64,000 nucleotides of DNA from Candidatus Limosilactobacillus excrementigallinarum (GTDB lineage Bacteria; Bacillota; Bacilli; Lactobacillales; Lactobacillaceae): positions 42,157 to 106,156 of the forward strand of contig DWZS01000032.1 in assembly GCA_019117445.1 (NCBI GenBank). Reading direction: 5' to 3'. Below the pieces are notes generated by a model. It made no database searches and was not told the DNA's origin. It was given only the letters and a program-made list of their open reading frames with translations. Shown piece by piece: positions 34,257 to 58,306 of the stretch. The first letter of the stretch is position 1. Each line of letters opens with the position of its first letter. A program made the translations under genes and the position numbers.

Positions 34257-34264
34257 CAGCAGTA

Positions 34265-55136: not shown

Positions 55137-55232
55137 AAAAATCTCCTTTGCATACTAATAACGTTGATACTTAAAAAGGCTCCCCCATCACGGAGAAGCC
55201 ATTATTGGATATTTTACACATCAAATAATTGC

Positions 55233-58106: not shown

Positions 58107-58175
58107 ATGACTACATTAAATTATTCTCAATTGAATAATGCGTTTAGTTACTGGTTCTGGAACTCCATCTCCTAG
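58107..58175 (+). CDS. leader peptide MTTLNYSQLNNAFSYWFWNSIS
   Basis: ATG with upstream GAGG RBS at 9-nt spacing; Tyr-Trp-Phe-Trp run; absent from the supplied ORF track because of size. Confidence 0.85.
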   Translation: MTTLNYSQLNNAFSYWFWNSIS

Positions 58176-58306
58176 AGTCAGTAACCTTTTGTGATGGCTT
58201 CTAGGATTAATACATCCGGAAGCCGACCAACCTTAATTTGGCATACTACCATTTAAGAAACGAGCGCTCCCGGGTGTTGCAGAAACTGCAATTCCCGGGT
58301 TTTTTA
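58147..58306 (+). promoter_or_regulatory. ribosome-mediated transcription attenuator with competing hairpins
   Basis: Four consecutive alternative pairings (1:2, 2:3, 3:4, 4:5) plus terminator, all read from the sequence; see findings. Confidence 0.82.
58269..58306 (+). terminator. leader intrinsic terminator
   Basis: CCCGGGtgTTGCAGaaaCTGCAAttCCCGGGTTTTTT. Confidence 0.93.

Follow-up and report, generated by a model that had tools for sequence, protein, structure and literature searches.

What is the role of a short reading frame with a run of aromatic codons that stands in front of an aminotransferase gene in Candidatus Limosilactobacillus excrementigallinarum? The reading frame lies in the window, that is, the whole 64,000-nucleotide stretch of DNA analysed here, and an earlier note on this DNA had proposed a peptide-leader attenuator with a relay of competing hairpins. 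Comparison with related leaders suggests that the leader very probably switches on aromatic amino acid genes in lactobacilli when aromatics are scarce.

The leader and its relatives

All features of the leader and its operon lie on the forward strand. A sigma-70-type promoter (58048‒58075) consists of a −35 element TTGACA, a 16-nt spacer, and a −10 element TAGAAT, with 11 of 12 consensus matches, and its TTGACA...TTAGAAT is also aligned in relatives. The interval from −35 to −10 (58054‒58075 and its counterparts in relatives, ATTA...GATTAGAAT) is unusually conserved among the leaders and is possibly an operator. A Shine-Dalgarno sequence, GAGG (58095‒58098), is followed by the leader peptide ORF (58107‒58175), which runs from ATG to TAG over 22 codons and encodes MTTLNYSQLNNAFSYWFWNSIS, as the earlier note had read it; we collected 115 distinct homologous leaders. 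The first gene of the putatively regulated operon (58327‒59508) encodes a class I/II aminotransferase (PF00155), a candidate aromatic aminotransferase whose best solved relatives are 4my5 and the aromatic/aspartate aminotransferases 1dju/1gd9. It is followed by a D-2-hydroxyacid dehydrogenase of the D-lactate/hydroxyisocaproate/phenyllactate type (59522‒60517; PF02826/PF00389; relatives 4xkj, 1j49, and 1dxy) and by a PTS_EIIC_2-type membrane protein (60538‒61569; PF13303), a candidate pathway transporter for which a solved relative was not found by sequence. Elsewhere in the window, a TPP riboswitch (RF00059) at 55220‒55312 on the reverse strand precedes a small membrane protein resembling an ECF component related to thiamine.

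Homologues of the aminotransferase occur in 346 of the 401 genomes of the family, and for 27 of the 30 best homologues the upstream region holds, at a similar distance, a short ORF that contains a run of aromatic codons. The earlier note had suggested a covariance search in the family. With a threshold of E ≤ 0.01, a first model built from 22 leaders placed the leader in 110 of the 401 genomes and 18 of the 40 genera, although inspection showed some few of the weakest matches to be false. The weak model matches set aside as false were L100, L110, L111, L120, L125, L148‒L151, L153, L155, and L156. The close Limosilactobacillus relatives L. coleohominis and L. caecicola carry the same leader. 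A second model, built from 65 copies, also detected the leader in other Lactobacillales families, and among 251 genomes sampled from the class it matched only the window's own copy. No second strong copy of the leader was detected in its own genome, where two weak matches lie inside or beside unrelated genes. Judged by these model matches, the leader family is one that recurs across the order Lactobacillales.

The aromatic codon block

Phe is encoded in all of the 115 distinct leaders, Tyr in 111, and Trp in 99. All three residues, which the earlier note had proposed to be read together, are carried by 96 leaders; 16 have no Trp, and Trp is not essential to the leader family. When 88 distinct leaders were aligned on the Trp codon, positions −3 to +2 were aromatic in 83/88, 70/88, 87/88, 74/88, 88/88, and 74/87 leaders, respectively, giving a six-codon block that is 80‒100% aromatic per position. 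In the window, this block of putative sensor codons is TTT AGT TAC TGG TTC TGG (F-S-Y-W-F-W, 58143‒58160). Its borders are non-aromatic, with aromatic codons at position −4 in 17/88, at −5 in 1/88, and at +3 in 2/84 leaders. Of 1072 short ORFs that start with ATG in the window, some have aromatic runs of at least four, at three separate places, and for this reason the run alone was not used as evidence. A chance ORF is countered instead by conservation, namely the block in 88 leaders and, as described below, the swap test with 35 leaders and the compensation seen at all 15 pairs.

Part of the block sits in helix 1:2 of the RNA, and T-boxes are common in the genome. Both observations would suit a structured RNA that spells aromatic codons by chance and is regulated by a protein or by direct, T-box-like tRNA binding, the ORF being incidental. 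We regard this explanation as extremely improbable. Position −3, which is outside helix 1:2 in most leaders, remains aromatic through an exchange of Tyr and Phe (44 TAT and 36 TTT), which means that conservation extends to the class of residue and is not a matter of the RNA alone. Moreover, the Shine-Dalgarno site (an SD-like motif in 102 of the 115 leaders) and the reading frame are conserved, the stop codon has a fixed place relative to segment 2 of the RNA, and no Rfam family, including the T-box, matches the leader.

The order and identity of the aromatic residues vary between leaders, and the Trp position may hold Thr, Lys, Arg, or Ser. The lost TGG codon is replaced by ACG in L090, L091, and L096, by AAG in L113, and by CGG in L112. 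The partner strand is altered too in the Trp-less leaders, and helix 1:2 is computed as kept for L090, L112, and L113. L090, L091, and L096 are APC permease leaders of one genus that encode YFTF without Trp, with the pairing partner changed accordingly, and these Trp-less permease leaders hint at an operon-specific tuning of the amino acids read.

Shortly before the block, a Q-L-N-(N/S) motif (58128‒58139; also L079, L101, L188, and L190) is found across genera and families, and its QLN codons vary synonymously (CAA/CAG and TTG/CTG/CTT/TTA). The motif may reflect a role of the nascent chain or a pairing with the 5′ UTR, the latter giving a weak signal (z −2.3). TnaC senses tryptophan in the ribosome tunnel. 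An arrest peptide, in which the nascent QLN and aromatic block sense a free aromatic amino acid or an aromatic ligand in the tunnel and the same hairpins transmit the stall, would explain the recurrence of QLN despite the synonymous codon changes. However, many leaders, such as L026‒L030, L088, and L105, have the complete RNA relay but no QLN, and the QLN codons might instead serve the weak 5′ UTR pairing. The variable aromatic order and the replaceable Trp also argue against an arrest peptide, and if a ligand caused the stall at these codons, excess would turn biosynthesis genes on. An arrest peptide is quite improbable as the explanation of the leader, and the motif leaves room for a nascent-chain contribution to attenuation.

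Competing RNA pairings and ribosome position

Six RNA segments form a chain of adjacent pairings. Segment 1 (58147‒58160) pairs with the 14-nt CTAGAGTCAGTAAC (58172‒58185) within segment 2 (58170‒58185). Segment 2 overlaps the leader stop codon and can pair with segment 1 or 3, its arm for segment 3 starting at 58170. Segment 3 (58191‒58207) pairs with 2 or 4, segment 4 (58212‒58224) with 3 or 5, and segment 5 (58269‒58282), the 5′ arm of the predicted terminator, with 4 or 6. Segment 6 (58286‒58305) comprises the 3′ arm of the intrinsic terminator and a U6 tract. The positions of these pairings had been given correctly before, although CTAGAGTCAGTAAC had been printed with one C too many. The predicted terminator (58269‒58305) has a hairpin of −21.5 kcal/mol, and in 35 of 35 representative leaders a terminator hairpin with a U-tract separates the leader ORF from the first gene. 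The leader fold is much stabler than those of 200 dinucleotide shuffles (z −6.0).

For 35 leaders with mutual identity below 78%, the pairing energy of each of the six segments with its own partner was compared with that for the partners of other copies (swap test), the segment borders being set by eye. For each of the pairings 1:2 (z −11.2), 2:3 (z −11.4), 3:4 (z −12.1), 4:5 (z −11.7), and 5:6 (z −18.3), all 35 leaders paired better with their own partner than with the median of the swapped ones, and 0 of 20,000 permutations reached the observed mean in any of the five. The ten non-adjacent segment combinations of these 35 leaders gave no signal except a weak one for 3:6. In a fixed-window version of the test, these five pairs were again the significant ones; the windows overlap, which caused some spill from one neighbour to the next. 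In a covariance-model-fitted alignment of 65 copies, each of the 15 pairs in helices 1:2 and 3:4 showed two-sided compensation, with 95% of the cells paired, 0 of 500 shuffles as good, and 31‒49% in slid controls; such an alignment is biased toward its own structure, and the swap test is free of that bias. This comparison of copies supports terminator and antiterminator pairings that would be mutually exclusive. The earlier note had named the loss of the aromatic run or of the 2:3 and 4:5 pairings in relatives as points against it. The run is conserved as the six-codon block of the 88 distinct leaders, and both pairings persist in all 35 divergent copies although their sequences have changed. 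The shikimate-operon leaders L089, L092, L094, L095, and L098 possess an extra hairpin between the leader stop and segment 2, and L099 and its relatives L184‒L187 have a similar insertion.

Relative to the leader stop codon, the 5′ arm of 2:3 has its start at a median of −1 nt; the distance to this start is 24 nt (18‒31) from the first aromatic codon and 8 nt from the last. Because of this arm position, a ribosome at the stop codon would cover segment 2, and a ribosome at the first aromatic codons would leave it free. Constrained folding reproduced this masking logic, which the earlier note had put forward: 2:3 forms in 32‒33 of 35 leaders when the ribosome masks an aromatic codon, and 3:4 forms in 25 of 35 when it masks the stop codon. 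In the equilibrium fold with the ribosome at the stop, residual 2:3 exceeds 3:4 in 9 of 35 leaders, with 4:5 dominating. The off state in these nine would depend on the folding order, 3:4 being made before segment 5 exists. In the folding model, the stop and regulatory codons seem to be placed so that the position of the ribosome selects the fold.

We consider it highly probable, from the compared sequences, that the leader works by ribosome-mediated transcription attenuation, monitors how far tRNA-Tyr, tRNA-Phe, and tRNA-Trp are charged, and turns the operon on under shortage. With ample charged aromatic tRNA, the ribosome would reach the leader stop and cover segment 2, so that 3:4 would pair, the 5:6 terminator would form, and the operon would be off. 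A ribosome stalled at one of the first aromatic codons would cover segment 1 and leave segment 2 free. Then 2:3 would form and segment 4 would be released to pair with segment 5, by which the terminator would be blocked and the operon turned on. RNA without translation would tend to the off state with 1:2, 3:4, and 5:6. The comparison shows the ORF family, the five competing pairings with their covariation, the geometry, and the associated genes, and from these we infer the stall, the on/off direction, and termination itself. According to a citation in PMC1262725, codon changes in the convincing-looking leader of Streptomyces ilvB were without effect.

Regulon and relation to known attenuators

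The first gene behind 63 classified leaders is an aminotransferase in 45, a PTS_EIIC_2 gene in 7, and an APC amino acid permease in 6; the remaining 5 leaders precede a transketolase‒shikimate dehydrogenase (AroE)‒DAHP synthase operon. The aminotransferase is followed by the dehydrogenase in nearly all leader copies nearest to that of the window, and leaders such as MLHTNTTPQLNNYFTFWFFNR lie upstream of DAHP synthase genes in other families. These downstream genes appear to fit the supply of aromatic amino acids. The strongest independent reason to believe that these genes are turned on by aromatic shortage is the position of the leader before shikimate synthesis operons.

In the 93% complete assembly of the window's own genome, chorismate synthase and prephenate dehydratase were not found, both being present in 14 of 14 control genomes. 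Since these two enzymes are missing from the assembly, we infer that the most likely role of the window's operon is a salvage route by which aromatic 2-oxo or 2-hydroxy acids become amino acids. The aminotransferase/hydroxyacid dehydrogenase operon, the shikimate operons, the permeases, and the orphan PTS_EIIC_2 protein, whose homologues immediately follow a copy of this leader as the first gene in 7 other loci, make up one candidate aromatic regulon. This shared regulon predicts what class of substrate the PTS_EIIC_2 protein would carry, the candidates being aromatic amino, 2-oxo, or 2-hydroxy acids.

On the other hand, the aminotransferase and hydroxyacid dehydrogenase can work catabolically, and in L. 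reuteri in rich medium, added tryptophan raised the mRNA of five of six putative araT genes (PMC9685921). If one of these five araT genes is the aminotransferase gene considered here, the L. reuteri result opposes the predicted direction, and either the direction or the medium needs explaining. It nevertheless seems very improbable that the operon is induced by an excess of aromatics and serves catabolism, with production of phenyllactate or indole-lactate. The five-helix chain sets the sign, as a stall on segment 1 frees segment 2 and blocks the terminator, and the same leader is found on shikimate synthesis operons, for which induction by excess would not be sensible. In L. reuteri, an araT gene, possibly the orthologue of the present aminotransferase gene, adjoins fldH and is linked to host-active indole compounds (PMC9685921). 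A broader picture that extends attenuation under shortage, namely an order-wide mixed Tyr/Phe/Trp regulon in which QLN aids the stall (attenuation plus arrest peptide) and which controls the indole-lactate/phenyllactate araT-fldH operon of gut lactobacilli, is in our estimate unlikely.

Rfam covariance models searched against the window's leader and ten relatives gave no family match at gathering, including the His, Trp, and Phe leaders, and only an unrelated weak caiA match at E ≤ 10. A known Rfam family was ruled out by this lack of a match. A T-box (RF00230) was likewise rejected at the leader, where its covariance model has no match; T-boxes are located elsewhere in the genome. The 23 T-box matches of the own genome mean that tRNA sensing by another route is available, and that the leader coexists with T-boxes and is no general replacement for them. 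A T-box match at 34261‒34476 on the forward strand (65 bits, below gathering) appeared in the whole-genome search only and is absent from the window scan.

The class to which the leader is assigned, ribosome-mediated attenuation with a his-like six-segment relay, is already known. The his operon has six segments, A to F, in which A:B, C:D, and E:F form the off state and B:C and D:E the on state. The enterobacterial his leader (RF00514, His_leader) shares with the present leader a leader peptide with regulatory codons and the six-segment relay, whereas the present leader would read Tyr/Phe/Trp, is hosted by Lactobacillales, and has no covariance-model match to His_leader. The earlier note knew of no described family like it; the topology of the relay is not new in kind. 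The enterobacterial trp, pheA, and pheST leaders read one amino acid each and have a shorter chain of hairpins. In these leaders, aromatic codons of a leader peptide control transcription termination, as proposed here, but one block of the present family mixes all three aromatics in 96 of 115 leaders. T-boxes bind tRNA directly and have no ORF, and T-boxes for aromatic tRNAs are known. They likewise sense tRNA charging and control termination, for which the present leader would use an ORF.

The mixed Tyr/Phe/Trp family was not found in Rfam, and searches of literature mostly outside subscription journals did not turn up a report of aromatic leaders as a family in Lactobacillales. The earlier note called a peptide attenuator for Tyr, Trp, and Phe together unusual among Firmicutes, in which leader-peptide attenuators for histidine and branched-chain amino acids are known (PMC2965389, PMC9413887, PMC5794164). 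Staphylococcus aureus ilv-leu has a leucine/isoleucine attenuator peptide (PMC5794164), and Bacillus and other Firmicutes have His leader peptides, reported to be without similarity to the proteobacterial ones (PMC2965389, PMC9413887). These systems also use attenuation by a leader peptide instead of T-boxes, and differ from the present one in their amino acids and operons. With the leader described here, by which Tyr, Phe, and Trp seem to be sensed together, the few leader-peptide attenuators outside Proteobacteria and Actinobacteria are joined by a regulatory RNA family that is distributed over a whole order of food and gut bacteria.
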